Of a stretch of DNA of 34,375 bases, positions 3,519 through 34,101 are shown piece by piece. Made by a program: the position numbers and the translations under genes. Location of the stretch: the NCBI GenBank assembly GCA_903828665.1, contig CAIKMZ010000049.1, forward strand, positions 1 to 34,375. The letters run 5' to 3'. Each line of letters starts with the position of its first letter. The stretch's first letter is position 1. Below the pieces are notes generated by a model. That model searched no databases, was not told the origin of the DNA, and was given only the letters and a program-made list of their open reading frames with translations. This DNA is from an uncultured beta proteobacterium. GTDB taxonomy: Bacteria > Pseudomonadota > Gammaproteobacteria > Burkholderiales > Burkholderiaceae_C.

Positions 3519-3562
3519 ATTGTTTTCCTCGACCGTTACTCTGGATATACCTTGTGCTGCGC

Positions 3563-5511: not shown

Positions 5512-5519
5512 GGCGATGC

Positions 5520-7860: not shown

Positions 7861-7872
7861 GCTTCTTCCGTT

Positions 7873-8550: not shown

Positions 8551-8559
8551 GGCAGGTAC

Positions 8560-10688: not shown

Positions 10689-10756
10689 GTTACGCTCCCG
10701 TCCGTTTGCGCGATGTCATCTAGGCATTCGCCTTTGCACAATGAAGGAGCAAGCTG

Positions 10757-11628: not shown

Positions 11629-11629
11629 T

Positions 11630-14487: not shown

Positions 14488-14547
14488 TGGCTCCGCATAT
14501 CCCATCTCCTTTGACAAGGCCAATTCCATCAACGCGGGAGCATCCTG

Positions 14548-16248: not shown

Positions 16249-16276
16249 GCCTACAAATACCAACGCAAAGGCCAGC

Positions 16277-18323: not shown

Positions 18324-19210
18324 TGACCATCAAGTCGGACACTCGTTTAAAGAATGCCACGAAGTCAGCTTCGGTCAAGACGTTGGGTTGCATCGCTAGT
18401 ACCTTGCTTATTCCGCTGGCCGCACGCGCCAGAGGAGCATCCATGTTCGCTCACCTGGACCCGCACGACCGTGATGCGCAGGCCGCATTCGATGCAACCG
18501 GCGCCGGGGCCGACGAGTTCCTGAATGATTGGGCCACGGTGCTCAACATCCTGTGGCGCACCGACTGCATCAAAAAGATGGGCGCAGCGTTCTTCGCCCA
18601 GCACCCCGACAGCCCCGGACTGAACCTAGGGGCCGGTTTGTCAACTTACTTTCAGTGGCTCGACAACGGGGCCAACAGCTGGACCGATACCGATCTGCCC
18701 GAAGTCATCTCGCTACGAGAACTTCTGCTTGCTCCGGTACAGCTGCATTGCAGAAACCACCCACTCGACATCATGCAGCCGGGCTGGTGGATCGGTCTGC
18801 GGCCCAAAAGGTACAGGGATGCAAAACCGGTTCTTATCATTTGCGAGGGTGTTCTGATGTACCTGGGTGCGGCCGAGGTGGCCGTGGTGTTGCGGGAAAT
18901 CGGCGAGCACGCACCGGCGGGTTCCGAGTTAATTACGGACTTCATAGCTCCCGCATTGATCGGCAAGGCTGCGTTTCATCCGAGTGTGCGCCGCACCGGC
19001 GCCGAGTTCGCCTCGGGCGCCCACAATGGCCAGGAGCTGGCCAATACCCATCCGCGGTTGCAGTTGCTGACCCAGCACAGCGCGGCCGAAGCCTACGGCT
19101 GGCTCGGGCATATGGCTGAGTTCTGCTGGCAGCCCTATACCAGCGGCCCCTTGTACAGTCTGATACGACTGGGTGTCACGGACGGCGCAGTGGCGCCACT
19201 GTCCAGGTGA
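18323..19210 (+). CDS. LCM/TcmP-family SAM-dependent O-methyltransferase
   Basis: A 295-residue class I methyltransferase of the leucine carboxyl methyltransferase (PPM1/TcmP) family. Typical features are TLLIPLAARARG near the N-terminus (not a signal peptide), the SAM-binding loop LNLGAGLSTYFQWLDNG at about 101-117, the acidic strand SWTDTDLPEVISLRELLL, and the late motif LIICEGVLMYLG. Members methylate carboxyl or hydroxyl groups of small molecules or proteins, and the substrate here cannot be read from sequence. Translation is coupled to fnr by a TGATG overlap. The Gly usually followed by Asp in the family loop (GAGLDTR) is followed by Ser-Thr here. A short GAAAG-TCAG-CTTTC hairpin lies just after the stop but lacks a good T-run. 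Confidence 0.8.
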   Translation: MTIKSDTRLKNATKSASVKTLGCIASTLLIPLAARARGASMFAHLDPHDRDAQAAFDATGAGADEFLNDWATVLNILWRTDCIKKMGAAFFAQHPDSPGLNLGAGLSTYFQWLDNGANSWTDTDLPEVISLRELLLAPVQLHCRNHPLDIMQPGWWIGLRPKRYRDAKPVLIICEGVLMYLGAAEVAVVLREIGEHAPAGSELITDFIAPALIGKAAFHPSVRRTGAEFASGAHNGQELANTHPRLQLLTQHSAAEAYGWLGHMAEFCWQPYTSGPLYSLIRLGVTDGAVAPLSR

Positions 19211-19634
19211 GTGCACTGCGATCCGAAAGTCAGCTTTCTGATTCTTTGGCGAAAATCGAACGTCAGATTGACTCAAGCGGGAGCACCCGCAATGGGCACA
19301 CAGTTCGTGTCCACCAGTGACAGCAGTCTGGCGACCTGATCTTTATGTTGGCTCCGGGGCTTGCCTGTCAGGAATGACAATCTCAGGAGGCGACCAATAG
19401 AAGCCATTTTGGATTGAAGCTCGGTAGCAGCCATACCTGCAAGGCGTGGTGCGACTCGACGGGTGCCCGCGCATTTTTTGTGTACATAACCGGCGCCACG
19501 CTGGACGCGTTCAAGGTTGGTCAGCCAGTCTATGGCGAAGGTGCCAGATTCTGTTTCAGTTTCGTCCCCTCGACGGCCCCGTCCGCTTCTGCCATACCTA
19601 GCACGATCAGGGATGGCGTCGACGTTTTGGTTTG
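19211..19634. other. Gene-poor interval with a coding-like open frame on the minus strand
   Basis: No recognised gene lies between the methyltransferase and lysR stops. The minus strand holds a frame that stops at 19273-19275 and is open for more than 120 codons back into the 3' end of lysR. It includes GTFAIDWLTNLERVQRGAGY, then further on LAGMAATELQSKMASIGRLL and LSLVDTNCVPIAGAPA before the stop. The first ATG in that stretch would give only a 53-residue product. On the plus strand an 86-codon frame at 19414-19674 overlaps it. Neither has a good ribosome site. It may be the remnant of a mobile element or gene, or chance. No tRNA, clear terminator or repeat array was seen. Confidence 0.3.
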
Positions 19635-20573
19635 TCAGTACAGCAGTTCCACGCCTTTCCAGGCGCCCGACTGAACCAGGTTCTTCACGGTTTCCTTCAG
19701 TTCGGTTCGAACCACGGCAGCGGCGGGGGACAGCCGTTCCGGAACAACCGAATAGAGAAAATTTTGTCGCTTCATGTTGGCATCAGAAATAGCCAGGCAG
19801 CGCCAACCTTTTCGCAGTTGACCGGCCTGCAACGCTGCGGCCATGGGCTTGATTGTGACGCCTATGCCCTCGTCCACACAGGCCAGCAGCAGCGACAGTG
19901 AGTCGATCTCGGCAACGACTGTGGCGGACAGATTGCGCTGCTCGAACTCTGCCACGATTCGACGCCTGAGGCCGTGCATGCTGGTTGGCAGGATCAAAGG
20001 CAATTGCGCCGCCTCGGCGATGCTGACTTTGACGCGGCGCTGGGCGATCAACTTGCTGTGGGTCGGCAACAGCACAAACAATTCCTCATCAACCAGGGGA
20101 TCGGCGACAAGCTCAGGGATGGCGTCCCTGGCAAAAAGTATCACCAAATCAAGCTGCCCGGTCTGCATCATTTGTCGAAGATGGCCGCTCATGCCCTCCA
20201 CCACATTGAGAACAATTCCCGGATACCGCTCGCGAATCCTTCGCACGAAAGGCACGCCCAAGGCGCAAATGGTGGTCGCCGCCAAACCAACTGACACCAT
20301 GCCATGAACCGTTCCCGGCTCCTGACGGGCAACCGACAGCGCCTGCTCAAGTTGACGCAACATGAAGCGGGCATGGTGCAACAATGCGGCGCCGTTTTCC
20401 GTTGGCGTCACGCCCTTGGAAGAGCGTATGAGAAGGGGCTTCCCAACCTCTGCTTCGAGCTTGGACAACTGCTGGCTCAACGCTGGTTGGGCGATGTAGA
20501 GTTGGCGTGACGCCTTGGCTAGGCTACCGCTATCGACGATTTGAACAAAGTACTTGAGCTGCCTGAGGTCCAT
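19635..20573 (-). CDS. LysR-family transcription regulator
   Basis: A 312-residue LysR-type regulator. The winged helix-turn-helix occupies residues 1-60 with MDLRQLKYFVQIVDSGSLAK, ASRQLYIAQPALSQQLSKLE and GKPLLIRSSKGVTPTENG. The remaining 240 residues form the periplasmic-binding-protein-like effector domain. The family-typical start at 20573 is preceded by AAGGGA, while an in-frame upstream start at 20651 would add 26 residues that do not fit. It is divergent from the transporter and catabolic cluster starting at 20719, the classical arrangement for a LysR activator that responds to a pathway substrate or intermediate. Overall it resembles the CynR/CbbR-like subgroup that acts on aromatic and organic acid pathways, but the ligand is unknown. 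Confidence 0.92.
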   Translation of the reverse strand: MDLRQLKYFVQIVDSGSLAKASRQLYIAQPALSQQLSKLEAEVGKPLLIRSSKGVTPTENGAALLHHARFMLRQLEQALSVARQEPGTVHGMVSVGLAATTICALGVPFVRRIRERYPGIVLNVVEGMSGHLRQMMQTGQLDLVILFARDAIPELVADPLVDEELFVLLPTHSKLIAQRRVKVSIAEAAQLPLILPTSMHGLRRRIVAEFEQRNLSATVVAEIDSLSLLLACVDEGIGVTIKPMAAALQAGQLRKGWRCLAISDANMKRQNFLYSVVPERLSPAAAVVRTELKETVKNLVQSGAWKGVELLY

Positions 20574-20603
20574 TGAAATATCCCTTGGTTGGACGACGGG
20601 CAA

Positions 20604-20645
20604 GGTATAAGAAATACCTATAGCCCATCTCGGAAAACGGTATTT
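20604..20645. promoter_or_regulatory. Candidate LysR operator (inverted repeat plus second half site)
   Basis: GGTAT-AAGAA-ATACC at 20604-20618 is a perfect inverted repeat with T-N11-A geometry, as expected for a LysR recognition site. A further half site GGTATTT lies at 20639-20645 and could be the activation site nearer the cluster promoter. Both lie in the 145-bp gap between lysR and the transporter operon. Confidence 0.55.
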
Positions 20646-20697
20646 TCTCATCTCCCGGGATGTTCATAGAATCGAACGGACAACGACTGTTTCAGTT

Positions 20698-20712
20698 TAA
20701 TATAACGAGGAG
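20698..20712 (+). promoter_or_regulatory. Weak -10 element and ribosome site of the transporter operon
   Basis: TAATAT at 20698-20703 may serve as a -10 box. The -35 position (about 20675) reads AACGGA, a poor match, consistent with a promoter that needs an activator such as the divergent LysR protein. If this -10 is right, transcription would start inside or just after the ribosome site, so the true promoter could also lie further upstream. GAGGAG at 20707-20712 is six bases before the ATG at 20719 and is a strong ribosome site. Confidence 0.35.
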
Positions 20713-20718
20713 ATAAAA

Positions 20719-21990
20719 ATGGAAATCAGCAAAGAAGTCAGCGAATTGGGTTTGCCGTCATCACAGCGGCGGCGCGCGTTGAAGGCGGGTGCCGCAATGC
20801 TTGGGGCTTCGGCTCTTGGTTTCCCTGCCATTGTTCTGGGTCAGTCGGACAAGATTCGGATCGGTCACCTGACGCCGCTGACAGGTTTTTTAGGTGCACT
20901 GGGCGAATACGCCGTGATGGGCATCAAGATGGCCACCGACGAGATTAACGCCGCCGGTGGCGTCCTGGGTCGCCAGCTCGAGGTGATGAGTGAAGACTCG
21001 GTTAATCCGCAGGTGGCTTCGACCAAGGCGCAGCGCATGATCGAACGCGACGGCGTGGCGGTCCTCATGGGCGAGATCAACTCGGCGTCGGCCCTGACCA
21101 TTTCGCAGGTCGCGGCGCGCAACAAGAAGCTGTTTTTGAGCGTGGGTGCGCGCTCCGATTCGCTGCGCGGCAAGGATTGCAACCGCTACACCTTCCACGT
21201 TGACATTCCAGTGACGGTGTTGGTCAATGCTGCCGGTCAGGCGCTGGTACGCGAGGGCCTGGTCAAGGGCAAAAGAATTTACAGCCTGACGGCTGATTAC
21301 CTTTTTGGTCATGACCTGTCCAAAGTCGCAAAGAATTTTTTCACCGCCAACGGCGGCAACCAAATTGGTGACGAACTGGTCGCCACGGACGTGACTGACT
21401 TCAGCCCCTACCTGCTGAAAATTCGTCAGGCCAAGCCCGACTTGGTGGCAACTAATCTGGCGGGCAACCAGGTGACCAACTTCGTTAAACAATACGCCGA
21501 GTTTGGTCTGCCCTACCCGGTGGCCGGCTTTAACCTCAACACAGCTGACGCCTGGGCCTCAGGCGAGGGCAACCTCGGTGGAATCTGGCCAACCGTCTGG
21601 CACCACGAACTACAGACACCTGCGTCGAAAGCCTTTACCGCCGCGTTCATCAAAAAGCATGGTAAGCCGCCCGAGAATCATGCCTGGATCGAATACGTGT
21701 CGCTGAAAATTCTGGCTCAGGCGATGAACCAGGCAAAGTCCACCGACACCGATAAACTTATCGCCTATTTCGAGTCTGAAGCACAGTTCGACTTGCTCAA
21801 GGCGCGCAAGGGTTACTTCCGCTCATGGGACCATCAGCTGATGCAGGAAGCTTATCCGTTTACGGTCAAGGCCAAGGGGCAGGCCAAGGACAAATGGGAC
21901 TTTCTGAAGTTCGGTGAGGCGGTGCCGGCAGCGAACCAGCCGCTCGAACTATTGGCCTCCGTAAAGGCAGACAACGTCTGCAAGATGTAG
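20719..21990 (+). CDS. HAAT-type ABC transporter substrate-binding protein (LivK family)
   Basis: A 423-residue periplasmic binding protein of the hydrophobic amino acid (HAAT, LivJ/LivK) class. The N-terminus SSQRRRALKAGAAMLGASAL has a double arginine before a hydrophobic stretch and may be a Tat-type signal; cleavage is likely near residues 38-42. The mature part has the family opening IRIGHLTPLTGFLGALGEY, then AVMGIKMATDEINAAGG, and the central VAVLMGEINSASALTISQVA. Relatives bind amino acids, aromatic or alicyclic carboxylates, amides and urea. The catabolic neighbours rather than this sequence suggest the ligand. It is the first gene of the LysR-controlled cluster and is followed after 57 bp by the permease. 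Confidence 0.9.
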   Translation: MEISKEVSELGLPSSQRRRALKAGAAMLGASALGFPAIVLGQSDKIRIGHLTPLTGFLGALGEYAVMGIKMATDEINAAGGVLGRQLEVMSEDSVNPQVASTKAQRMIERDGVAVLMGEINSASALTISQVAARNKKLFLSVGARSDSLRGKDCNRYTFHVDIPVTVLVNAAGQALVREGLVKGKRIYSLTADYLFGHDLSKVAKNFFTANGGNQIGDELVATDVTDFSPYLLKIRQAKPDLVATNLAGNQVTNFVKQYAEFGLPYPVAGFNLNTADAWASGEGNLGGIWPTVWHHELQTPASKAFTAAFIKKHGKPPENHAWIEYVSLKILAQAMNQAKSTDTDKLIAYFESEAQFDLLKARKGYFRSWDHQLMQEAYPFTVKAKGQAKDKWDFLKFGEAVPAANQPLELLASVKADNVCKM

Positions 21991-22047
21991 CGAGAACCTG
22001 AGGCTGCCCGCAAGCCTGCGCGGCATCTTCAGACAAGCACTGAACTT

Positions 22048-22923
22048 ATGGAAATTGCATTCCTGCTCGAGCAGGTGGTCAATGGGCTCGTGCTCGGTGG
22101 CTACTACCTTTTGTTGGCCCTGGGCCTTTCGCTGATCTTCAGCGTCGGCGGAATTGTCAACCTTGCTCATGGCGCGTTTTACGCACTGGGCGCTTACGTT
22201 TCACTGGAGATTGGAAAGTGGCTCGGTTTCGGTGCGGCGGTTCTGCTCTCGCCCATTGTGGTCGGCGTACTGGGCATCGCATTCGAGCGCTTCCTGCTGC
22301 GGCGCTTTTACAGCGCGGATCCGATACTGAGCCTGCTCGTCACTTTTGGTCTGGCCATGGTGGCCGAGCAGGCGATCCGCATGATCTGGGGCGCGGCGCC
22401 GCTTGCGTCGACGATGCCGCCGGAGTTCAAGGGTAGCCTGATGGCGGGTGACTTCATGTTTTCGCGCTACCGGCTGTTTCTGCTCTGCGTTGTAATTGCC
22501 GTGATGACGGCGCTCTGGCTGCTGTTGCACAAGACCGCCTTTGGCCGTGTCGTGCGCGCCGGTGTGCAGCGGCCCGACATGGTGGCGGTGCTTGGCATTC
22601 GCCTGCAGCCCTACATGACCGCAATCGTGGTGCTCGGCGTCGCGACCGCTGCACTCGGTGGTGCATTGTTCGGACCGATTGCCATCGTGCACCCGGCGAT
22701 GGGGACCGAGATCATGACGGTCGCTTTCGTCGTGGTCGTGATTGGTGGTCTGGGCAGTTTTTGGGGCGTGGTGCTCGCGGCCATTCTGGTGGGGGTGGTG
22801 CGCGGCATCACGATCCATTTCATTCCGGCTGCTGGTGAGGCGTCGATGTACGTGCTGATGTTTATCGTCCTGCTGTTGCGCCCGCGCGGCTTGCTTGGCG
22901 AGCGAATCGAGCGCTTCGAATGA
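22048..22923 (+). CDS. LivH-type ABC transporter permease
   Basis: A 291-residue inner-membrane permease with about eight hydrophobic helices. It shows the LivH opening EQVVNGLVLGGYYLLLALGL followed by SLIFSVGGIVNLAHGAFYALGAY, and the cytoplasmic coupling region with FGRVVRAGVQRPDMVAVLGI. It pairs with the LivM-like domain at the start of the next protein to make the membrane channel. The reading ends at 22923, and the next gene probably begins 13 bp later at a GTG. Confidence 0.92.
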   Translation: MEIAFLLEQVVNGLVLGGYYLLLALGLSLIFSVGGIVNLAHGAFYALGAYVSLEIGKWLGFGAAVLLSPIVVGVLGIAFERFLLRRFYSADPILSLLVTFGLAMVAEQAIRMIWGAAPLASTMPPEFKGSLMAGDFMFSRYRLFLLCVVIAVMTALWLLLHKTAFGRVVRAGVQRPDMVAVLGIRLQPYMTAIVVLGVATAALGGALFGPIAIVHPAMGTEIMTVAFVVVVIGGLGSFWGVVLAAILVGVVRGITIHFIPAAGEASMYVLMFIVLLLRPRGLLGERIERFE

Positions 22924-22936
22924 GAAGGTCCCTGGC

Positions 22937-25459
22937 GTGAGTCAAAACAAGTTTCATACGCTCGCTATTGGCGCTGCGGCGTTAGTGGTGTTGCCATTTG
23001 CGATGCAGGCGATCGGCCTGACGATCGACACGGCGACCGTCGCAGTGATGTTAGCGATGGCGGTGATGGGCCTCAATCTGCTGGTCGGCTACACCGGCTT
23101 GGTGTCGTTCGGCCAAAGCGCGTGGTTCGGCATTGGCGGCTATGCGGCCGCACTGGCACAAAAACACTGGTTCCCTGGGCAGATGTTCATGCCACTGGTC
23201 TTTTCCGTTGTTTTCACAGCGCTACTGGCGTTGGTCGTGGGCTTTGTCATTTTGCGCCGGCGCGGAGTTTACTTCTCGTTGCTGACACTGGCGCTGTGTG
23301 CGCTCGCGTTCGCCATCGCGTTTCGCTGGACGGCTGTTACGGGCGGTGAAGGCGGCCTGGGCGGGCTCGAGCGCGGCAAATTTGGCCCCTTCGACCTCAA
23401 TGACGACCGTATTTACTATGTCTTTGTTGCCCTCATCGGCTTTGCGGTTTTGGCCGCGCTGCTGCGCGTCATTCGCTCGCCGTTCGGCCATGTGTTGGTG
23501 GCGATTCGCGAGAACGAGCAACGCGCGAGCTTCCAGGGCTACGACATCGACAAGTACAAACTCGTTGCCTTTCTGCTATCAACCTGCGTAACCGGGCTTG
23601 CGGGTGCACTGCTGGTGTTTGACCACCGGCTCGCCGCTGCCGAATCAACAACGGTGGCATTTTCGGGCGAGATGCTGGCGATGGTCGTGATCGGTGGTAT
23701 GCGCAACTTCCTCGGGCCAGCTGTGGGCGTGTTGTTTTACCTGCTGTTTCGCGAGTTCTTCTCAATCTGGACCGACAACTGGCTACTCTGGTTTGGCCTG
23801 GTTTTTGTTGGCTTTGTGATCTTCTCGCCGACTGGCTTGACGGGCATTTGGGCGCAGGTGCAACGGCGTTGGCGGCCGCCACCCGAGGAAAGCGCCGCGA
23901 TGAGCCGGCGCAAGATCTACGAAGGCCTGCCATTGCCGGCATTTCTGCGACCGGCGCCGTGTGTGGGCGCGGTGCTCGAGGTGGTCAGCATCGACAAGCA
24001 GTTCGGAGGCATACGGGCCGTGATCGGCGCGCAGCTCTCGCTTGAGGCGGGCCAGGTGCATGCCTTGATCGGCCCCAATGGCGCGGGCAAGACCACCACC
24101 TTCAACTTGGTCTCCGGCATGTTCGCGCCAGACCAGGGTGCGGTGCGTCTGAATGGTCGCGAAATACACCAACTTAGCCCGCATCAAATTTGCCAGCAGG
24201 GTCTGTCGCGTTCGTTCCAGATCACCAACCTGTTCAAGGGGCTCACGATTTATGAAAATCTGCGCCTGTCACTGCAGGCGCGCCACCCAGGACGCTATAA
24301 CTGCTGGCGCGACATCGACAGCTATTCCCAGGTACACGCCGAGACCCAGGAGTTGATGAAGTTCCTCGGCCTGGAGGGCATCGAAGACACCTTGGGTGGC
24401 GACCTTTCGTACGGCGGCCAGCGCCTGGTAGACCTTGGCATCGCACTCGGCTCCAAACCGTCGGTGGTGCTGATGGACGAGCCACTCGCTGGACTGGCTG
24501 CAGCCGAGCGCGAACGCGTGAGCCGGCTCATTAAATCGATAGCGCTCAATATCCCGGTCTTGATCGTCGAGCACGACATTGACCGGGTGCTAGGATTTTC
24601 TCAACGCGTTACCGTCATGAACCAGGGGCGGGTGTTGATGTCGGGAACGCCCGACGAGGTACGCGCTGACGTCCGCGTGCAGGAAATCTACACCGGTTCG
24701 GGCACGCCGCCTGTGACCGGTCGAATCGCCGGCGAGGTGGGTCATCGGCCGCAGTTGTTGCGCTTCGAAGGTGTGAACGCGTTCTACGGCAAGAGCCATA
24801 TCCTCAACGACGCAAGCCTGGATGTGCGCGAAGGAGAGATCGTCGCGCTGCTGGGGCGCAACGGTGCGGGCAAGTCGACGCTGCTCAAGGCGCTGTGCGG
24901 CTTGCTGCCGGCCTCGGGCAGCATTGAATTCGAAGGGCGTGACATCGCCGGCATGGCAGCGCCAGATATCGCACGCCTGGGTATAGGCTATGTGCCGCAA
25001 GGGCGCGGTCTGTTCGCCGGCATGACGGTCGCTGAAAACCTGGCGCTGGGTCGTCTGGCACGCAACACCGATGGTAGCCACGGTGTTGCCTGGAGCGAGG
25101 AGAAGATCTACGAGATGTTCCCGCGCCTGGGTGAGCGCCGCAACATTGCCGCCGATTACCTCTCGGGTGGCGAGCAGCAAATGGTGGCAGTGGCGCGGGC
25201 CTTGTCCGGCAACGTCAGGTTGCTGCTGCTGGACGAACCCTTTGAGGGGCTGGCGCCGACCATCGTGCAGGAACTGTTCACGGTGTTCGATCGTCTGCGT
25301 GGACAAGTCTCGATCGTCATCGTGGAGCACAACTTGGACCTGGTTCTAGCCCTGGCAGATCGTGTATTTGCGCTCGAGCGGGGTGCCGTCTTCCATACAG
25401 GACCGGCCGAGCCCCTGCTAACTGACCTGAACTATCGCAAGCAGATTCTCTGGATCTAA
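22937..25459 (+). CDS. Single-chain LivM-LivG-LivF fusion: permease plus two ABC ATPases
   Basis: An 840-residue triple fusion. Residues 1-310 are a LivM-type permease (NLLVGYTGLVSFGQSAWFGI, VLVAIRENEQRASFQGYD). A charged Pro-rich linker (about 310-345) leads to a LivG-type ATPase with Walker A GPNGAGKT at 379-386, signature LSYGGQ and Walker B VVLMDEPLAGL. A second linker is followed by a LivF-type ATPase with Walker A GRNGAGKS at 640-647, signature YLSGGEQQ and LLLLDEPFEGL. These are normally three separate proteins. The joins show no stop or frameshift, so the fusion is seen directly. I prefer the GTG at 22937, which has GAGAAGG just upstream; an in-frame TTG at 22895 would overlap livH by 29 bp and has no such site. 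Confidence 0.92.
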   Translation: MSQNKFHTLAIGAAALVVLPFAMQAIGLTIDTATVAVMLAMAVMGLNLLVGYTGLVSFGQSAWFGIGGYAAALAQKHWFPGQMFMPLVFSVVFTALLALVVGFVILRRRGVYFSLLTLALCALAFAIAFRWTAVTGGEGGLGGLERGKFGPFDLNDDRIYYVFVALIGFAVLAALLRVIRSPFGHVLVAIRENEQRASFQGYDIDKYKLVAFLLSTCVTGLAGALLVFDHRLAAAESTTVAFSGEMLAMVVIGGMRNFLGPAVGVLFYLLFREFFSIWTDNWLLWFGLVFVGFVIFSPTGLTGIWAQVQRRWRPPPEESAAMSRRKIYEGLPLPAFLRPAPCVGAVLEVVSIDKQFGGIRAVIGAQLSLEAGQVHALIGPNGAGKTTTFNLVSGMFAPDQGAVRLNGREIHQLSPHQICQQGLSRSFQITNLFKGLTIYENLRLSLQARHPGRYNCWRDIDSYSQVHAETQELMKFLGLEGIEDTLGGDLSYGGQRLVDLGIALGSKPSVVLMDEPLAGLAAAERERVSRLIKSIALNIPVLIVEHDIDRVLGFSQRVTVMNQGRVLMSGTPDEVRADVRVQEIYTGSGTPPVTGRIAGEVGHRPQLLRFEGVNAFYGKSHILNDASLDVREGEIVALLGRNGAGKSTLLKALCGLLPASGSIEFEGRDIAGMAAPDIARLGIGYVPQGRGLFAGMTVAENLALGRLARNTDGSHGVAWSEEKIYEMFPRLGERRNIAADYLSGGEQQMVAVARALSGNVRLLLLDEPFEGLAPTIVQELFTVFDRLRGQVSIVIVEHNLDLVLALADRVFALERGAVFHTGPAEPLLTDLNYRKQILWI

Positions 25460-25487
25460 CTTATCCCCCTTCACCACGGAATACACC

Positions 25488-25880
25488 ATGACCCATACAC
25501 AACAGGCCAGAGGCAAGGCGCTAGTCGAGAAGATGGCGAACCTGCCGTGGAAAGAATATCCCGGCCATTTTGGCGGTGCCTTGTCGAAGGCGCTGGCGGC
25601 AAAGGAGAACACCGGTTCGAGCCGACTCGATTTCCGGATTTCACGCTATGCACCCGCGGCCTATGTAGGTGAACATGTGCACAAGGTGCAGGAGCAGGTG
25701 TACTACGTGCTCGAGGGTGAAGGCATTCTTACGCTTGATGATGAGCGGCATTTAATGCGTTCCAATGACTACGTCTACGTGCCACCCGGTGTCCGGCACA
25801 GCTTCACCAACACCGGCGTTTCCGGATTGGTGTTTCTGGTGATCACGACGCCCGCCAGCGATGACGAGGAGATGCTGTGA
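25488..25880 (+). CDS. Single-domain cupin protein
   Basis: A 130-residue small cupin. Cupin motif 1 supplies His63, His65 and Glu69 (GEHVHKVQEQVYYVLEGEG) and motif 2 supplies His104 (DYVYVPPGVRHSFTNTG), the usual 3-His/1-Glu metal site. Such proteins act as dioxygenases, isomerases, decarboxylases or simple ligand sensors, and the sequence does not decide. It sits 28 bp after the transporter fusion and its TGA overlaps the aldehyde dehydrogenase ATG (TGATG), so it is made together with the pathway enzymes. A role in isomerising or hydrating a cyclic intermediate would fit, but this is inference. Confidence 0.85.
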   Translation: MTHTQQARGKALVEKMANLPWKEYPGHFGGALSKALAAKENTGSSRLDFRISRYAPAAYVGEHVHKVQEQVYYVLEGEGILTLDDERHLMRSNDYVYVPPGVRHSFTNTGVSGLVFLVITTPASDDEEML

Positions 25881-27340
25881 TGAATCGACTGCATTCTTCG
25901 GTGGACGATGCGATGCAGCAGGACGTCTGCCGTTTGCTGATTGACGGCGAGTGGGTCGAGGGTGCGGGTCCGCGCTTGTCGGTGCGCGACAAATACCGGC
26001 AACATGAGTTTGCGTCCCTGACCTTGGCCGATGCGGCACAGGTCAAGCTCGCTGTCGACTGCGCGCAGGCTGCCTTTGAACGCGGTGTGCCGGTGGCGTT
26101 CGAGCGCGGAGCCGTCCTGGAACGCGCGGCTGCGCTCGTTGAAGCGCGTCTCGACGATTTTGTTCGCACCATGCAAATGGAAGCGGGTTTCACGGCCTCA
26201 GACGCCACTGGCGAAGTGCGCCGCTGCATCCAGACACTCAAGCTGTCAGCTGAAGAAGCGCGCCGGGTTGCCGGCGATGTGATTCCACTGGCCGGCGCCC
26301 CCAATCAGGCTGGGCGCTTGGCCTTTACGCTGCGTGTGCCTCTTGGCATCGTGGCGGCGATCACGCCGTTCAACTCGCCGCTCAACACCGTTGCCCACAA
26401 GGTGGCGCCGGGTTTTGCTGCCGGCAACGCCGTGATTCTCAAACCATCCACCAACACACCACTGACCGCCTGCAAGCTCGCCGCGGTGCTGATCGAGGCT
26501 GGTTTACCGCGTGGCTTTCTTTCGGTCCTGCATGGTAGCGCTGATGTGGTCAAGTGGCTGCAAGAGGATGATCGTGTTCGTTTCTTCGCCTTCACTGGGA
26601 GCACCGAGGTTGGACGAAAGATCCAGCAGGCGGCCGGTTTACGCCGCACGCAGATGGAGTTGGGCTCGATTGCCAGCACCATTCTGTGCGATGACGTCCA
26701 ACTCGACGTGGCGCTGCCCAAGGTCGTGAATGCCGGCTATCGCAAGGCTGGGCAGGTTTGCACTTCGGTGCAGCTGCTGCTGGTACACCAGTCGCTGCTG
26801 AAGGAAGTGGAAACGCGGCTGACTCAACTGGTCAAGGCTTTGCCCTATGGTGACCCGCAGGATCCGAAGACCGTGGTGGGTCCCGTCATCAGTGAGAATG
26901 AAGCTGTGCGCATCGATGCTTGGATTCAGGCGGCGGTAGCCGCAGGCGCCAGATGTCTGGTTGGCGGACAGCGCCAAGGCTCCGTGGTGCCGCCGACGCT
27001 TCTTACCGCGATCGACGATTCGATGAACGTCGGATGTTGTGAAATCTTTGGCCCCGTGGTTTGCATTGTGCCGTTCACGACGCTGGACGAAGCCATCGCG
27101 CGCGTTAACTCCACGCCGTTCGGTCTGGCCAGTGGCATCTTCACAAACCGGCTTGGCGATGCCTTTGCCGCCGCGCAACGGTTGGAAGTTGGCGGCGTTC
27201 ACATCAATGAGACATCAAGTTCCCGCGTTGACCTGATGCCCTATGGTGGCTCCAAGGACAGCGGTTTCGGTCGCGAAGGTCCACACTATGCGGTTCAGGA
27301 AATGACCGAAGAACGCATTGTCACGTTCACGACTTGCTGA
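25880..27340 (+). CDS. NAD(P)-dependent aldehyde dehydrogenase
   Basis: 486 residues, full length for the superfamily. Oxyanion Asn165 lies in ITPFNSPLN, the nucleotide-binding region has FTGSTEVG, general base Glu260 lies in QMELGS, and catalytic Cys294 lies in KAGQVCTSVQ. The late EIFGPVVCIVPF element is present. The family oxidises aldehydes to acids with NAD or NADP. The overall pattern is like the lactaldehyde/semialdehyde group, but the substrate is not determined. In this cluster it would oxidise the aldehyde released by the thiamine-diphosphate enzyme encoded 10 bp downstream. GAGGAG lies eight bases before the chosen ATG; a GTG three bases earlier is an alternative. Confidence 0.9.
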   Translation: MNRLHSSVDDAMQQDVCRLLIDGEWVEGAGPRLSVRDKYRQHEFASLTLADAAQVKLAVDCAQAAFERGVPVAFERGAVLERAAALVEARLDDFVRTMQMEAGFTASDATGEVRRCIQTLKLSAEEARRVAGDVIPLAGAPNQAGRLAFTLRVPLGIVAAITPFNSPLNTVAHKVAPGFAAGNAVILKPSTNTPLTACKLAAVLIEAGLPRGFLSVLHGSADVVKWLQEDDRVRFFAFTGSTEVGRKIQQAAGLRRTQMELGSIASTILCDDVQLDVALPKVVNAGYRKAGQVCTSVQLLLVHQSLLKEVETRLTQLVKALPYGDPQDPKTVVGPVISENEAVRIDAWIQAAVAAGARCLVGGQRQGSVVPPTLLTAIDDSMNVGCCEIFGPVVCIVPFTTLDEAIARVNSTPFGLASGIFTNRLGDAFAAAQRLEVGGVHINETSSSRVDLMPYGGSKDSGFGREGPHYAVQEMTEERIVTFTTC

Positions 27341-27350
27341 AAGGAAGACC

Positions 27351-29132
27351 ATGCCAAAGATGAAAGGTGGCGAACTGATCGCCGAGTACCTGGTACAGGA
27401 AAAAGTACCCTACGTTTTTGGCGTCTGCGGACACGGCAACGTTGGTATCCTGGATGCACTCTACGACGTTCGTGACAAAGTCCAGTTGATATCACCGCGC
27501 CACGAGCAGTGCGCCGGGCACATGGCCGATGCCTATTTTCGTGTCAAGCACCAACCGGTTGCTACCTTGACATCGACCGGCCCCGGCTCGGCCAATATGG
27601 TGATGTCGCTGGCAACGGCACTGTCGGATTCGTCTGCCTTCCTGGCGATCACGGCCAACGTTCCGACTTCGCAGGCAAACCGGGCGCCGTTTCAGGAGTT
27701 GTACAAGCACAATCAGTCTGATTTTCCGGCGGTGCTGCGCCCGGTTGTCAAGCGCACCTTCCAGCCCTCGCGTGTGGACATGCTGCCACTGGCCCTGCGC
27801 CAATCGTTTGACACGATGGTCACGGGTCGCCCCGGGCCGGTCAATTTGGACATTCCCTACAACGTGTTCCAAGAAGAGGATGAGGTGACGCTGCCGCCAG
27901 CAGCGCATCGGTTTGGTTCTCATCGTCCGGGCGCTTCTGATCAGGACATCGCCGCAGCCTTGAATTTGTTGGCGACTTCGCACAAGCCAGTGTTCTTTAT
28001 CGGTCAGGGCGTTGCTCTGGCCGAGGCTGGCCCGGAGATTACCGCCTTATCGCAGCGACTCGGCATTCCGGTCATCACCTCGCCTAATGGTATGGGCTGC
28101 GTGCCGGCCGACGATCCGCTGACGCTGGGCTTCATCGGACGCAATGGTGCTTATCCAGCGAATCAGGCGGGCCGATTTGCCGATCTGGTGATCACCATCG
28201 GAACGCGCTTCGACGATCGCTCCTCTTCGAGTTGGCAGCCAGGCTACTCGTGGAACTTCCCCAAGACCAAGCTGCTACACGTCGACATTGATCCGCAGGA
28301 GCTTGGGCGCAACTACCCGCCAACGCTGGGCATCATCGCCGACGCCAAGGTGTTCGCGACGCAACTGCTGGCAGCGATGGTGGCACGGCGCGAACTCGAT
28401 GCCGCGCGCTTTGCACCCTGGCGGGCTGAGGTGGTGCGCTGGCAAGCGGAATGGGAAGCCCATGTGCGACCCCACTTCAGTGACATCACTTCACCCCTTC
28501 GCCCCGAGTACGTGGTCGATGCCGTTCAGCATGTGCTGCCCGAAGATGCCATCCTCTCGCTCGACTCTGGCGTGCACCACAACTGGTTTATGCAGTTTTG
28601 GAAGCCACGGAGGCCGCAGAGCATGCTAAACAGTTGGGGGTATTCATCGATGGGTTTCGGCGTTTGTGGCGTGCTCGGCGCCAAACTTGCCGCGCCAGAG
28701 CGACCCTGCATTGCAGTGGTGGGCGATGGTGGTTTTACGATGACACCTTATGTTCTGTGCACCGCAGTTGAATTCAATCTGCCCTGCATCTGGGTGGTCT
28801 GGAATAACTTTGCCTGGGGTGCGATTCGCGACATCCAGCACGGACTTTTCAACGGCCGCGAACATGGCACTGCCTTTTATCAGGGACAAGGCAGCGGCAA
28901 GCCCTACAACCCCGATTTTGCGGCCTGGGCACGTGCCTGCGGCGCTGATGGCGTCACCGTGACGAAGAGCGAAGATCTGCGCGGTGCGCTTGAGCAAGCG
29001 ATCAAGAATAACCGACCTTGCGTCATCGACGTGCACGTCGACGCCAACGTGCGTCCGCCTTCCACGGGCACCTGGCAACTGCCCCCAATTCCGTTCAAGG
29101 AACCCGTATTCGGCAAGCCGTGGATCGCCTGA
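27351..29132 (+). CDS. Thiamine-diphosphate enzyme, cyclic 1,2-dione hydrolase-like
   Basis: 593 residues with the acetolactate-synthase fold: PYR domain 1-170, central domain about 190-340, PP domain about 370-560. Glu52 (RHEQCAGHMADAY) is the expected cofactor-activating Glu. The ThDP/Mg motif runs from GDG at 458-460 to Asn485-Asn486. The first active-site loop is FGVCGHGNVG with His28 and Asn30. A GHGN at this place is, from memory, shared by IolD and fits cyclohexane-1,2-dione hydrolase of Azoarcus, whose active-site mutants at His28 and Asn484 are known and whose length (about 589) is close. Both cleave a ring C-C bond between vicinal carbonyls. Acetolactate synthases lack this loop, and no regulatory subunit is nearby. 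AAAGGAAG precedes the ATG. The exact substrate is inferred only from neighbours. Confidence 0.85.
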   Translation: MPKMKGGELIAEYLVQEKVPYVFGVCGHGNVGILDALYDVRDKVQLISPRHEQCAGHMADAYFRVKHQPVATLTSTGPGSANMVMSLATALSDSSAFLAITANVPTSQANRAPFQELYKHNQSDFPAVLRPVVKRTFQPSRVDMLPLALRQSFDTMVTGRPGPVNLDIPYNVFQEEDEVTLPPAAHRFGSHRPGASDQDIAAALNLLATSHKPVFFIGQGVALAEAGPEITALSQRLGIPVITSPNGMGCVPADDPLTLGFIGRNGAYPANQAGRFADLVITIGTRFDDRSSSSWQPGYSWNFPKTKLLHVDIDPQELGRNYPPTLGIIADAKVFATQLLAAMVARRELDAARFAPWRAEVVRWQAEWEAHVRPHFSDITSPLRPEYVVDAVQHVLPEDAILSLDSGVHHNWFMQFWKPRRPQSMLNSWGYSSMGFGVCGVLGAKLAAPERPCIAVVGDGGFTMTPYVLCTAVEFNLPCIWVVWNNFAWGAIRDIQHGLFNGREHGTAFYQGQGSGKPYNPDFAAWARACGADGVTVTKSEDLRGALEQAIKNNRPCVIDVHVDANVRPPSTGTWQLPPIPFKEPVFGKPWIA

Positions 29133-29169
29133 ACACACTAACTCTATTTCACAACATCTGAGGTTTTCA

Positions 29170-29892
29170 ATGAGCAATAAACTTGCACTGGTTTTTGGTG
29201 GCTCGCGCGGTATCGGCGCGGCCTGTGTCCAGGCACTCGCAGACAGCGGATTCGATGTCGCTTACACCTATGTCGCCAGTGGTGCCGGTCTGCCGGAGCA
29301 AATTGCCGGCGCGCGCGTCAAAGCTTACGCCGTTGACATCTGCGATTCGGCACAAGTGGCCCAGGTATTTGCAGATGTGCTGCGTGACTTTGGAACGGCG
29401 CCGCAGTGTGTGGTCGCCAATGCGGGTATCAATGTACCGCCCGGGCCGATGGCGCAATTCAATCCGGACGATTTCCGTAAATTGGTGGAGGTCAATATTG
29501 TTGGCGCTTTCAACGTGCTGAGCGCAGCGGCCAAGCATGTGCTGGACGCAGGCAACATCATTGCCCTGACCACTTCGATGGTGCGTGTCGGTGTACCCGG
29601 CGGTGGCCCCTACACCGCAACCAAGGCTGCTGTGGAAAGTCTGGTGCGATCAATGGCCAAGGAGTTGGCGCCGCGCCGGGTGCGTGTGAATGCAGTGGCC
29701 CCGGGTCCGGTTGACACCGATCTGTTTCGCGCCGGCAAGACCGACGAGGCCAAGGCGCGCGCTGCCACGATGAGCCCTTTCAATCGCATCGGGACACCGG
29801 CTGAGGTGGCTGAAGTGGTGAGCTTCCTCGCCTCGGACAAAGCATCCTGGGTTCATGGCCAGATCATTCAGCCCAACGGCGGTATGGTCTGA
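29170..29892 (+). CDS. Short-chain dehydrogenase/reductase (SDR)
   Basis: A 240-residue classical SDR. The cofactor loop is GGSRGIGAA (residues 10-18), the NAG element has Asn84, and the catalytic set is Ser136, Tyr148 and Lys152 (YTATK). The C-terminal PGPVDTD and GQIIQPNGG elements are typical. It would oxidise an alcohol to a ketone, or the reverse, with NAD(P). In this cluster the likely role is making the keto group of a cyclic diol or hydroxyketone. The ATG at 29170 follows TGAGG and begins the nucleotide-binding fold, so the longer in-frame reading from 28984, which lies in the preceding gene, is rejected. It is 37 bp after the ThDP enzyme gene. Confidence 0.92.
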   Translation: MSNKLALVFGGSRGIGAACVQALADSGFDVAYTYVASGAGLPEQIAGARVKAYAVDICDSAQVAQVFADVLRDFGTAPQCVVANAGINVPPGPMAQFNPDDFRKLVEVNIVGAFNVLSAAAKHVLDAGNIIALTTSMVRVGVPGGGPYTATKAAVESLVRSMAKELAPRRVRVNAVAPGPVDTDLFRAGKTDEAKARAATMSPFNRIGTPAEVAEVVSFLASDKASWVHGQIIQPNGGMV

Positions 29893-29942
29893 CAATTTTG
29901 GGTCACACGTGAAGGCTGCGTGAAAGCAACGAGTTAAAAAAT

Positions 29943-31430
29943 ATGAGCGGCGTCGAAGAGATATTTGATGTGGTGGTGGTCGGTGGTGGCGGTGCCGGTC
30001 TGGCGGCGGCGATCGAGGCGCGCGCGACCGGTCACAGCGTGGTGCTGTTGGAGAAGAATTCGCAGCTCGGCGGCTCGACTGCCTGGTCCATTGGGTCGGT
30101 TAGTTCAACCCAAACACCGCATCAAAGGAAGCGCGGCATTGTGGACTCGCCGGCCGATCACTGGGCCGATATGCCCGGCTTTGCTGGTGATTTCGCTTCG
30201 CGCGACAACGCTGAATTGCGAAAAGTTCTGTGCGACGAAATCCCGGACACATTCCAGTGGCTGCTCGATTCGGGTGTGCGTTTCATGGGCCCTATGCCCG
30301 AGCCGCCGCACCGCCAGCCGCGCATGCACAACGTGCTGCCCAATTCGCATTCCTTTATCTACCACCTCGGCCGCCGTGCGCGTCGCTCGGGCGTTCTGAT
30401 TCGGACCGACACGCAGGTGAGCGCCCTGGTGCAGGATGAGCGCGGGCGCATCAATGGCGTAGACGCCCAGGGCCCAACCGGTTCAATCCGATTCAGCGCT
30501 CGGGGTGGCGTGGTCTTGGCCGCCGGAGACTTCACTAACAGTCCTCAGTTCAAGGCGCGCTTCATGGGGCCGCAGGAGGCCAAGGTCGAAGGCATCAACG
30601 CCACGGCCACCGGAGACGGTCAGCGCATGGCGGAAGCGCTCGGTGCGCAAATAATCAACGGTGACCTGGCCTTGGGTCCGGAGATCCGTTTCATCCCACC
30701 AAGCGGCGAGAATTTCATGCGTTTGCTGCCGCCGTGGCGCTGGTTGGCGGTATTCATGGCGTGGGCTATCGATCATCTGCCGGCGGCAATCCTGCGCCCG
30801 TTCATGATGAAGTTCCTGACCACGGCGCTGGCGCCTTCGCTGGCACTGTTTGAGGCTGGCGCCTTGTTGGTGAACCAGCAAGGTGAACGTTTTGGAGATG
30901 AGCTTGATCGTCCGGCCTGGCGTCTGCCTGACCAGCCTGAAAAAGTCGGTTACATCCTGATCGACCAGGCATTGGCGCAGCGCTTTTGTGCGTGGCCTAA
31001 TTTCATTTCCACGGCGCCGGGCATTGCCTATGCCTACATTCCGGACTACCGCAAAAATCGCCCCGATGTCTATACCGAGGCGCCGACGCTGCAAGCCCTG
31101 GCGGGCAAGCTGGGCATGGATGCATCGGCACTGACCAGGAGCGTGGCATCGGCGTCGTTGCGCCCATTCGGCGACGGACCCTTTGTTGCATTGGGACCTG
31201 TACGCTCGGCTTTCGTGCACAGTGAAGGGGGCTTAAAGGTCGACCGTCAGCACCGGGTGTTGGCTGGCGATGACCAGCCTTTGCCCGGCCTGTTTGCGGC
31301 CGGCTCAACAGGACAGGGCGGACTGCTACTCAAAGGACATGGTCATCATCTGGCCTGGGCCTTTGTCTCAGGGCGGCGCGCCGGCAGATTCGCAGCTCAG
31401 TCGGTCAAAGGGACAGCACGGTTCTCATGA
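29943..31430 (+). CDS. FAD-dependent dehydrogenase (fumarate reductase/KstD family)
   Basis: A 495-residue flavoprotein of the fumarate reductase/3-ketosteroid-delta1-dehydrogenase family. The Rossmann FAD loop is VVVGGGGAGLAAAIEA (about 11-26), with GGSTAWSIGS near residue 43 and the C-terminal FAD element FAAGSTGQGGLLLKGHG. A hydrophobic segment at about 270-290 could contact the membrane or a hydrophobic substrate. Such enzymes introduce or reduce a C=C next to a carbonyl, often in rings. Together with the SDR and the dione-hydrolase-like enzyme this suggests desaturation of an alicyclic ketone or acid. No strong ribosome site precedes the ATG; GAG at about -10 is the best. It is 50 bp after the SDR gene. 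Confidence 0.85.
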   Translation: MSGVEEIFDVVVVGGGGAGLAAAIEARATGHSVVLLEKNSQLGGSTAWSIGSVSSTQTPHQRKRGIVDSPADHWADMPGFAGDFASRDNAELRKVLCDEIPDTFQWLLDSGVRFMGPMPEPPHRQPRMHNVLPNSHSFIYHLGRRARRSGVLIRTDTQVSALVQDERGRINGVDAQGPTGSIRFSARGGVVLAAGDFTNSPQFKARFMGPQEAKVEGINATATGDGQRMAEALGAQIINGDLALGPEIRFIPPSGENFMRLLPPWRWLAVFMAWAIDHLPAAILRPFMMKFLTTALAPSLALFEAGALLVNQQGERFGDELDRPAWRLPDQPEKVGYILIDQALAQRFCAWPNFISTAPGIAYAYIPDYRKNRPDVYTEAPTLQALAGKLGMDASALTRSVASASLRPFGDGPFVALGPVRSAFVHSEGGLKVDRQHRVLAGDDQPLPGLFAAGSTGQGGLLLKGHGHHLAWAFVSGRRAGRFAAQSVKGTARFS

Positions 31431-31511
31431 TTCGACCACCGCCCAGCTCAATGACAATTCTCTGCGCCTGGTACCCATGCGTTGACATGGGGAAGAGGGA
31501 GACTCTGGGCG

Positions 31512-32915
31512 ATGCTTGACGTACTGGTTATCGGCGGCGGTAACGCCGCGCTGTGCGCGGCCCTGATGGCGCGCGAGGCTGGTGCCTCTGTGCTGCTGCT
31601 CGAAGCCGCGCCACGCGCCTGGCGCGGCGGCAACTCGCAGCACACGCGCAATCTGCGCTGCATGCACGATGCGCCGCAGGACGTGCTGATCGACGCCTAC
31701 CCCGAGGAAGAATACTGGCAGGACCTGCTCAAGGTCACCGGCGGCATCACCAATGAGGAACTGGCGCGCCTGACGATCCGCGCCTCCTCCACCTGCCGCG
31801 ACTGGATGCGCAGCCATGGCGTGCACTTTCAGCCACCGCTCTCGGGCGCGCTGCACGTGGCGCGCACCAATGCCTTCTTCATGGGTGGTGGCAAGGCCCT
31901 GGTCAACGCCTATTACCGCAGCGCCGAAAAGCTTGGCGTGCAAGTGCGCTACGAGACGCCGGTGAACTCGGTCGAAATGGACGGCGAGCGCTTTGTCGCC
32001 GTGCACACGGCAGCGGGTGAGCGCATCGCGGCCCGAAGCTGCGTGCTGGCCGCCGGCGGCTTCGAATCCAACCTCGATTGGCTGCGCCAGGCCTGGGGCC
32101 AGAACGAACGCGGCGAATGGCCGGCCGACAACTTTTTGATCCGTGGCACGCGTTTCAATATGGGCGTGCTGCTCAAGCACATGATCGCTGCTGGCGCCGA
32201 CACCATAGGCGACCCGACGCAGGCGCACATGGTGGCGATCGACGCGCGCGCGCCGCTTTTTGATGGTGGCATCTGCACCCGCATCGACTGCGTCTCGCTT
32301 GGCGTCGTGGTCAACCGCGAGGGCGTGCGCTTCTACGACGAGGGCGAGGACTTCTGGCCCAAGCGCTACGCAATCTGGGGCCGCCTGGTGGCGCAGCAGT
32401 CGGGCCAGGTCGGCTACTCCATCATTGACCAGAAAGCCATCGGACGCTTCATGCCGCCGGTCTTTCCCGGTACCAAAGCCGACACCCTCGATGAACTCGC
32501 GCGCAAGCTCGGCCTGCCCGAAGCGGCTTTTGTCAAGACCGTGCAGGACTACAACGCCGCCTGCCAGAGCGGCACGTTCGACCACACGGCGCTCGACGAC
32601 TGCACCACCGCCGGCCTGACACCGGCCAAGACGCACTGGGCGCGTCCCATCGACCATGCGCCCTTCTATGGCTACGCGCTCAAGCCCGGCATCACCTTCA
32701 CCTACCTCGGGCTCAAGGTCAATGCCCAGGCGGCCGTGCACTTTGCTGGCCGGCCCAGTCCGAACCTCTTTGTCGCCGGCGAGATGATGGCCGGCAATGT
32801 GCTGGGCAAGGGCTACACGGCCGGCGTTGGCATGTCCATCGGCACCGCTTTCGGGCGCATCGCCGGCACACAGGCGGCGATTGCTGCGCGGAGGATCGAC
32901 CATGCAAGCGCTTGA
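31512..32915 (+). CDS. tcuA: Tricarballylate dehydrogenase-like FAD protein TcuA
   Basis: A 467-residue FAD protein, the length I recall for TcuA. It opens with [20 protein letters not shown] (dinucleotide-binding loop), then [20 protein letters not shown], a GGNSxHTRN element characteristic of TcuA-type proteins. The late FAD element [19 protein letters not shown] follows. TcuA oxidises tricarballylate to cis-aconitate and passes electrons to TcuB. The downstream tcuB overlaps it, which supports the call, but no tcuC transporter or tcuR is seen in the window, so the true substrate may differ. I chose the ATG at 31512; a TTG at 31482 is in frame but the fold starts here. Third codon positions look richer in G and C than in the upstream genes. 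Confidence 0.85.
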
Positions 32916-34101
32916 AGCCCTGGGCCGCGAGGCCGCTGCGCTGGCCAATGGTGGCCGTCCCGTGATTGCTATCCTGAGCGCCAACGAGGCCGAGGTCGGC
33001 CGCCAGATGCAGATTTGCAACGCCTGCCGCTACTGCGAGGGTTTTTGCGCCGTGTTCCCGGCCATGACGCGCCGGCTCGAATTCGGCAAGGCCGATGTGC
33101 ACTACCTGGCCAATCTGTGCCACAACTGCGGCGCCTGCCTGCACGCCTGCCAGTACGCGCCGCCGCACGAGTTCGCCGTCAACGTGCCGCAAGCCATGGC
33201 GAAACTGCGGCTGGACACCTATACCGATTACGCATGGCCGTCCGCCTTGGGCCGCCTGTACCAGCGCAACGGCCTGACGCTGAGCCTGGCCAGCGCTTTC
33301 GCGCTGGTGCTGTTTCTGCTGCTGGCGCTGCTGGCGCGTGGCACGCTTTTTCCGGGGCCACTGCAGGGCAATTTCTATGCGGTCTTTGGCCACAATCTGC
33401 TCGGTCTGATGTTTGGCGCCGTGTTCGGCATGGCCGTGCTGGCGCTGGCTATCGGCCTTGCAAGATTCTGGCGCGGCGTGTCGCTGGCCACAGCAGCGCA
33501 GGACGCGCCAACGCCGGGTCTGTACCGCGCGGCCGGCACCGAGGCTGTCAGCGATGTGCTCAGTCTCAAGTACCTGGGCGGCGGCCATGGCCAGGGCTGC
33601 AACAACGCCGACGATGCGTTCACGCTGTGGCGTCGGCGCTTTCACCATTTCACCTTCTACGGCTTTGGCCTGTGCTTCGCAGCGACCGGTTTGGCCACGC
33701 TTTACCACTACCTGCTGGACCGCCACGCGCCCTATGCCCTGGACAGCCTGCCGGTGTTGCTGGGCACTGCCGGCGGCATCGGTCTACTGATCGGGCCCGT
33801 CGGTCTGCTCTGGCTCAACCTGCAGCGCGACCCGGCGCATGGCGATGTGGCGCAGCGTCCGATGGACCGGGGCTTTATCGCACTGCTGCTGCTGGTGAGT
33901 CTGAGCGGCCTGGCGCTGCTGCTCTGGCGCGACAGCGGCGCCATGGCGCTGCTGCTGGCGCTGCACCTGGGCGTGGTGATGGCCTTGTTTCTCACCATGC
34001 CCTACGGCAAGTTCGCGCACGGCATTTTCCGCAGCGCTGCTTTGCTAAAGTCGGCACTTGAAAAACGCGTACCGAACAAACTTGGGCTTGGCAGCGATTG
34101 A
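32902..34101 (+). CDS. tcuB: TcuB-like membrane iron-sulfur electron-transfer protein
   Basis: A 399-residue inner-membrane protein. The N-terminal part binds two iron-sulfur clusters through [11 protein letters not shown] at about 35-45 and [11 protein letters not shown] at about 73-83. The rest has about six transmembrane helices with several His residues ([23 protein letters not shown]) that could hold haem. TcuB is known to reoxidise the flavin of TcuA and feed electrons to the quinone pool. GGAGG seven bases before the ATG sets the start, which overlaps the end of tcuA by 14 bp; the in-frame reading from 32797 is inside tcuA. It might also serve the homologous flavoprotein at 29943-31430, but that is speculation. 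Confidence 0.9.

Follow-up and report, generated by a model that had tools for sequence, protein, structure and literature searches.

Gene content and order of the operon

The 34,375-nt stretch analysed here as a whole (hereafter the window; contig CAIKMZ010000049.1 of assembly GCA_903828665.1, from an uncultured beta proteobacterium) carries an operon of ten plus-strand genes at 20719–34101, with intergenic gaps of at most 81 bases, situated behind a divergent LysR-type regulator gene. The operon joins a HAAT-type transporter and an enzyme dependent on thiamine diphosphate (ThDP) to the tricarballylate dehydrogenase gene pair tcuAB. All genes were found at the following places, and their frames contain no internal stops.

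19635–20651, minus strand: LysR-type regulator, divergent from the operon (Pfam HTH_1 and LysR_substrate)
20719–21990, plus strand: HAAT-type substrate-binding protein (Peripla_BP_6, 266 bits)
22048–22923, plus strand: HAAT permease of the LivH type (BPD_transp_2)
22895–25459, plus strand: fused HAAT permease and two ATPase domains (BPD_transp_2 and two ABC_tran stretches)
25488–25880, plus strand: small metal-type cupin (Cupin_2, 65 bits; HxHx3E and PPGxxH present in the sequence)
25877–27340, plus strand: aldehyde dehydrogenase (ALDH), presumed semialdehyde dehydrogenase (Aldedh, 457 bits)
27351–29132, plus strand: three-domain ThDP enzyme (Pfam TPP N, M and C domains)
29170–29892, plus strand: classical short-chain dehydrogenase/reductase (SDR) with YxxxK (adh_short_C2, 190 bits)
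29943–31430, plus strand: FAD_binding_2 oxidoreductase, fumarate/urocanate-reductase-like (Pfam, NCBIfam and PDB comparison)
31512–32915, plus strand: tcuA, tricarballylate dehydrogenase dependent on flavin adenine dinucleotide (FAD) (NF006130, 767.8 bits, cut-off 369)
32902–34101, plus strand: tcuB, 4Fe-4S electron-transfer partner of TcuA (NF011607, 674.2 bits, cut-off 524)

TcuA converts tricarballylate to cis-aconitate by oxidation, TcuB serving as its electron partner. Both products also exceed the cut-off of a second model (TIGR02485, 696.8 bits versus 372.55 for TcuA; TIGR02484, 402.4 bits versus 246.6 for TcuB). The best start positions are 31512 and 32902, so that tcuB overlaps the end of tcuA; in case of the fused permease gene the actual start is possibly situated slightly downstream of 22895. 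The initial annotation ended at 31430, and the two tcu genes at 31512–34101, into which the operon extends 81 bases past the FAD gene, lay outside its range. A pattern scan found no terminator-like site on the plus strand of this gap (31431–31511); over 19500–34375 the same scan yielded numbers close to chance, with 20 terminator-like sites versus 15.9 in shuffled sequence and 2 promoter-like sites versus 3.5. The presence of tcuAB suggests a polycarboxylate as end product.

The remaining genes are assigned at the level of domains. The HAAT binding protein stays under the cut-off of all four NCBIfam models matched, including those of the urea and branched-chain amino acid types, ALDH under those of the best 25 of 45 models matched, and the SDR reaches no cut-off among the best 25 of 228. 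The matches of the cupin to PDB sequences are weak, with quercetinase on top and sugar phosphate isomerase-like cupins also represented. An SDR, ALDH, a cupin, a HAAT transporter and a divergent LysR gene had been named around the ThDP gene in the initial annotation, and the corresponding Pfam domains occur at those places. Likewise, no coenzyme A (CoA) ligase or thiolase was detected in a Pfam scan of the eight genes at 20719–31430 and the LysR gene, in agreement with the earlier statement. The FAD gene had been described as a ring-ketone-type dehydrogenase; its product is an FAD_binding_2 protein and, among PDB sequences, is nearer to urocanate and fumarate reductases (best match 109 bits) than to ketosteroid dehydrogenases (best 69 bits).

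Motifs and phylogenetic placement of the ThDP enzyme

The ThDP enzyme shows the features of its superfamily, i.e., three domains, a catalytic glutamate (Glu52) and the GDG...NN metal motif (GDG at 458–460, NN at 485–486). It carries CGHGNV at 26–31, a motif identical in the window enzyme and in the open frames, one per locus, of 80 related loci; 25 of 26 inspected positions are invariant across these 81 rows. Cyclohexane-1,2-dione hydrolase (CDH) of Azoarcus and IolD are hydrolases of cyclic 1,2-diones, and by analogy the window enzyme may possibly open the ring of a carboxylated cyclic dione. The CDH reference sequence was checked over its full length against PDB 2pgn. As predicted earlier, His28 of the stretch FGVCGHGNVG shares an alignment column with His28 of CDH, and GHGN is also present in IolD, namely in all four sequences above the TIGR04377 cut-off. 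These four carry Ile in the column of CDH Asn484, as does the window enzyme. Since IolD has both GHGNV and this Ile, the motif of the window enzyme is closer to IolD than to CDH.

Membership in a characterised family was examined with curated models. IolD (TIGR04377, 258.8 bits, cut-off 715) and Xsc, the sulfoacetaldehyde acetyltransferase (TIGR03457, 265 bits, cut-off 676.4), were rejected on score, and CDH on the ground that three of four active-site residues differ. The best NCBIfam model is TIGR00118, the acetolactate synthase large subunit, at 386.3 bits. This match would suit a carboligase of the acetolactate synthase type acting in anabolism or overflow, as would the RFDDR and FQE stretches, which are retained in alignment with yeast acetohydroxyacid synthase. 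We consider this very improbable: the score is far under the cut-off of 538.35, GH replaces GG in the ThDP loop, the operon surroundings are those of uptake and catabolism, and a different gene of this genome clusters with E. coli IlvI (support 100/99).

Phylogenetic analysis comprised three unrooted trees. All three unite the window enzyme and its relatives of at least 45% identity in a separate clade (100/100), apart from that of the acetolactate synthases (100/99 or 100/100). Clear placement in another ThDP clade, which the initial annotation had named as a ground for refutation, is only partly borne out, the clade being one of its own and not a characterised one. In the second tree, from which two very long rows of this genome were removed, the enzymes with a GH motif (the window clade, a protein of Azoarcus KH32C, a Rhizobium/Arthrobacter/haloarchaeal group, IolD and CDH) are separated by one branch (99/98) from acetolactate synthases, BbmA and others. 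In the third tree, which excludes the motif columns and additionally contains benzaldehyde lyase as well as E. coli IlvI, Gcl, Oxc and PoxB, this branch was recovered at 91/95.

Several observations weigh against assigning the enzyme to dione hydrolysis. The column of CDH Asn484 (in YGANW) is occupied by Ile492 (in WGAI); the earlier equation of this residue with Asn485/486 did not survive alignment, for these two are the NN of the common metal motif, which is present in acetolactate synthases too. The columns of CDH His31 and His76, which we take to be active-site residues, correspond to Val31 and to a position within TSTGPGS, so that His28 alone of four is kept. Among PDB sequences, BbmA (272 bits) and acetolactate synthases (242 bits) score above CDH (165 bits). 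The first tree, which includes the two very long rows, scatters the GH-motif enzymes and places CDH beside one of these rows, away from IolD and the window clade. Removal of CDH lowers the support of the GH grouping to 70/84, and after removal of IolD the split is missing from the free tree and CDH shifts to PoxB (support 32).

Constraining the GH-motif enzymes together after removal of IolD nonetheless costs nothing (p 0.52). A grouping of the window clade with CDH alone, the latter being long-branched, gave p 0.08 in the approximately unbiased test, and with IolD alone p 0.05. Kinship of the GH-motif enzymes as one clade is thus neither firmly supported nor rejected, and it is not counted among the results because its recovery varies with the long-branch rows taken in. 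A structure prediction based on 13 close relatives (mean predicted local distance difference test score, pLDDT, 62.3) was set aside for fold and pocket comparison, because pLDDT is below 50 in 26–29, 75–163 and 486–520, which hold parts of the active site. In line with the general scheme of the initial annotation, the data agree well with a catabolic operon in which the ThDP enzyme would cleave a C–C bond and a semialdehyde would then be oxidised to a polycarboxylate; the analogy to CDH is weaker than had been claimed, owing to the single residue kept, the lower score compared to BbmA and acetolactate synthases, and the indecisive clade tests.

Gene context and tcuA linkage in related genomes

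The related loci are the best 80 of 280, with ThDP relatives at 74 to 85% identity. Neighbouring genes were counted by tblastn with set identity limits, and many loci are short. A table of longest open frames was discarded after one mixed family took 227 frames in GC-rich loci. Its replacement, a codon-usage caller, returned no genes in L062, L073, L075, L078 and L082 and missed others, which is why the main counts are those of tblastn. ALDH is present in 65 of the 80 loci, the cupin in 61, the SDR in 54 and the FAD gene in 29 (at least 50% identity), the transporter genes in 41 to 43 (including versions of 30 to 50% identity), and tcuA and tcuB in 13. For the 53 loci with 8 kb on both sides the corresponding numbers are 48 (ALDH), 47 (cupin), 37 (SDR), 24 (FAD gene), 34 (transporter) and 13 (tcuAB). 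The LysR gene was found in 44 of the 80 loci with an identity of at least 50%. Other recurring neighbours encode TctC-type receptors, a sugar-binding protein in which no signal peptide is evident and, in 26 loci, a KstD-like FAD protein.

In 59 of the 80 loci, no more than 150 bases separate ALDH from the ThDP gene. This arrangement would also be expected if the ThDP enzyme were a lyase that splits an alpha-hydroxyketone into two aldehydes (retro-acyloin cleavage), one of which is oxidised by ALDH, as known from benzaldehyde lyase, a remote relative at 143 bits. Such an activity appears quite unlikely, since benzaldehyde lyase has HGAH in place of CGHGN and clusters with oxalyl-CoA decarboxylase, away from the window enzyme.

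The linkage to tcuA was examined with the NF006130 profile in the genomes behind the ThDP loci. A first batch of 37 genomes was hand-picked for long flanks, 12 of them already seen with tcuA at 58% identity or more inside the locus; a second batch comprised 42 of the other 43 loci (L056, which has the same assembly name as L042, was omitted), of which L050 was absent, leaving 41. Above the cut-off, tcuA occurs in 74 of these 78 genomes (36 of 37 and 38 of 41), compared to 42 of 150 sampled genomes of the family of the window, a sample that itself includes ThDP carriers (G000, G002, G044 and G048). The two sets differ in composition, and the counts are not independent trials because the carrier genomes are related to one another.

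Distances were determined for the 37 genomes of the first batch, after the ThDP gene and tcuA had been mapped onto common coordinates and five TcuA rows scoring under the cut-off had been removed. In 24 of them tcuA is located within 20 kb of the ThDP gene (2.2 to 16.9 kb), where 0.38 would be expected by chance; in 18 of these 24 both genes share a strand, and in 19 this tcuA is the sole copy. Among the 25 genomes without a previously seen tcuA match, 12 have tcuA within this distance; in L022, which belongs to these 12, TcuA is diverged and had earlier matched at 34%. Proteins of this diverged type are encoded near the ThDP gene at L016 (7128–8603) and at L022, L065 and L072; the TcuA of these four genomes reaches 569 to 589 bits, over the cut-off. 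A tcuAB pair is also present in a plasmid cluster of Methylobacterium nodulans, and the genome of the window contains two tcuA copies over the cut-off, the second one elsewhere.

An alternative would be ring opening of a cyclic dione to a simple dicarboxylate, with tcuAB as an irrelevant neighbour. It would account for the remaining 13 of the 37 genomes, which do not carry tcuA within 20 kb (two have it far off on the contig of the ThDP gene, in ten it is on a different contig, some contigs ending near the gene, and one lacks it), and tcuA is fairly frequent in the family. Given the excess of close pairs over chance and the presence of tcuA in nearly all carriers, we regard this alternative as unlikely; the 13 genomes nevertheless count against a route ending in tricarballylate.

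The same holds for some of the neighbours. Alphaproteobacterial and Paraburkholderia-type loci (e.g., L012, L014 and L030) encode NAD epimerase-type proteins and a xylose-isomerase-type TIM barrel, and sequences read by eye in a few loci resemble thiolases, MaoC, acyl-CoA dehydrogenases, enoyl-CoA hydratases or CoA transferases. Azoarcus KH32C (L127, 9977–13454) encodes a ThDP relative of 37% identity with GHTN next to genes of a shikimate dehydrogenase, a type I 3-dehydroquinate dehydratase and a citryl-CoA lyase, and a CoA transferase gene also belongs to its surroundings. Annotated plasmid relatives carry tcuR and ligK (near the Neorhizobium relative) or, on the opposite strand, a type II 3-dehydroquinate dehydratase gene.

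The ThDP gene is uncommon in its own family, with 8 of 299 genomes at an E value of 1e-150, six of which (this genome counted) show at least 78% and two 45% identity. The gene set occurs in many environmental Burkholderiales as well as in Bradyrhizobium, Methylobacterium, Azospirillum and others. Plasmid pUSP3 of Aminobacter sp. MSH1 (L100, 8541–15776) contains two ThDP genes of the clade (51% and 65% identity), clustered with genes for SDRs, a TIM-barrel protein and Gfo/Idh/MocA; genes for ferredoxin and desaturase-type oxygenases are situated a few kb off. A further GH-motif ThDP group, with GHGIW, is located beside histidinol dehydrogenase-like genes on Rhizobium and Arthrobacter plasmids (L128, 8001–11224, and L130, 6348–9791). 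Elsewhere in the window, an MSHA or type II secretion-like pilus cluster occupies both strands of 2013–17512 (secretin, PilM-like, N-methylation pilin-like, MshEN/T2SSE ATPase and T2SSF membrane proteins), followed at 17517–19210 by genes of a Crp/FNR-type regulator and a leucine carboxyl methyltransferase (LCM) family protein.

Proposed route to tricarballylate and comparison with known systems

Starting from the observed gene content and order, open frames, conservation and tcuA linkage, we tentatively propose that 20719–34101 encodes a catabolic route which ends in tricarballylate and in which the ThDP enzyme cleaves the C–C bond of a dicarbonyl compound, perhaps by ring opening. A carboxylated, oxygenated compound would be imported through the HAAT transporter and converted to a 1,2-dicarbonyl by the SDR and the FAD oxidoreductase, perhaps with the cupin as isomerase or hydratase. 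The ThDP enzyme would then split the bond joining both carbonyls in the manner of CDH and IolD to yield an acid and an aldehyde, the latter being oxidised by ALDH to tricarballylate, which TcuA, re-oxidised through TcuB, would convert to cis-aconitate for the citric acid cycle. The position of ALDH beside the ThDP enzyme and of tcuAB in the operon suggests tricarballylate as the acid and its semialdehyde as the aldehyde. All reactions of the route are predicted from sequence, those of TcuA and TcuB by way of curated family models. Taken over all ThDP chemistries, tricarballylate is a rather probable end product, and due to the link to tcuAB the prediction is definite and directly testable.

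Decarboxylation of a 2-oxo acid by the ThDP enzyme is nearly as likely as ring opening. It is the commoner ThDP chemistry, and many ThDP enzymes of this fold use 2-oxo acids. In this case 4-carboxy-2-oxoadipate, formed with the help of the SDR or the cupin, might be converted to tricarballylate semialdehyde and CO2, with ALDH leading to tricarballylate and TcuAB to cis-aconitate as above; we hold this version of the route to be possible, if somewhat doubtful. The evidence from tcuAB and ALDH fits it equally, the top PDB matches carry no hydrolase name, and ligK is annotated near the Neorhizobium relative, LigK being the aldolase for 4-carboxy-4-hydroxy-2-oxoadipate, the hydroxylated analogue of the presumed substrate. 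The GH motif and GHGN, on the other hand, are those of IolD, and two trees place the four IolD sequences, CDH and the window family together on the same side of a branch, albeit not robustly.

If hydrolytic ring opening is retained and the product is exactly tricarballylate, the substrate of the ThDP enzyme would be 3,4-dioxocyclopentane-1-carboxylate, a four-membered ring aside. We know of no source of a 3,4-oxygenated cyclopentanecarboxylate, which speaks against ring opening in this form. The quinate- and shikimate-type genes near remoter relatives give a hint of hydroaromatic substrates; this case is kept apart from the proposed route because a seven-carbon ring acid must lose one further carbon. 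One may speculate, with considerable doubt, on a widespread, as yet undescribed route in soil and freshwater Proteobacteria by which hydroaromatic or alicyclic carboxylates are degraded without aromatisation, via a vicinal dione carboxylate, a third ThDP cyclic-dione hydrolase family and tricarballylate/TcuAB; conceivable, if doubtful, substrates would be rings of the shikimate type or, within dissolved organic matter, the alicyclic fraction rich in carboxyl groups. A search of the open-licence literature (titles and beginnings of abstracts on CDH, tricarballylate, quinate, alicyclic compounds and IolD) showed no account of the operon or its substrate among the papers listed, and those listed for BbmA offered nothing pertinent. 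To our knowledge, the tcuAB genes have been described only for growth on tricarballylate itself; they would gain a wider catabolic role if the proposed route is true, and a ThDP step by dione hydrolysis would add a third such enzyme family to CDH and IolD.

CDH oxidises its aldehyde product itself, whereas a separate ALDH is encoded here. Both ThDP enzymes are of similar length with Gly-His at 27–28; Asn484, His31 and His76 of CDH are not conserved in the window enzyme (165 bits). An excerpt of PMC12247030 describes cleavage of the C–C bond of cyclohexane-1,2-dione by CDH and the joining of pyruvate to ketones by its H28/N484 variants, and CDH is mentioned by name in an excerpt of PMC12655727. 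Common to the window enzyme and IolD are GHGNV and Ile at the CDH-484 column, but IolD has an extra residue after GHGNV and forms its own clade (100/100), and the window enzyme remains far from its cut-off (258.8 versus 715 bits). Compared to acetolactate synthase (TIGR00118), which is matched over nearly the full length, GG is changed to GH; the GG motif is also found in BbmA (PDB 8x3x and 8xod), the top PDB match at 272 bits. Finally, as for TcuA and TcuB of Salmonella, both products are clearly assigned here by scores over the cut-offs, but in the window their genes are joined to an operon of transporter, ThDP enzyme, ALDH, SDR, FAD oxidoreductase and cupin genes, with a second tcuA elsewhere in the genome.

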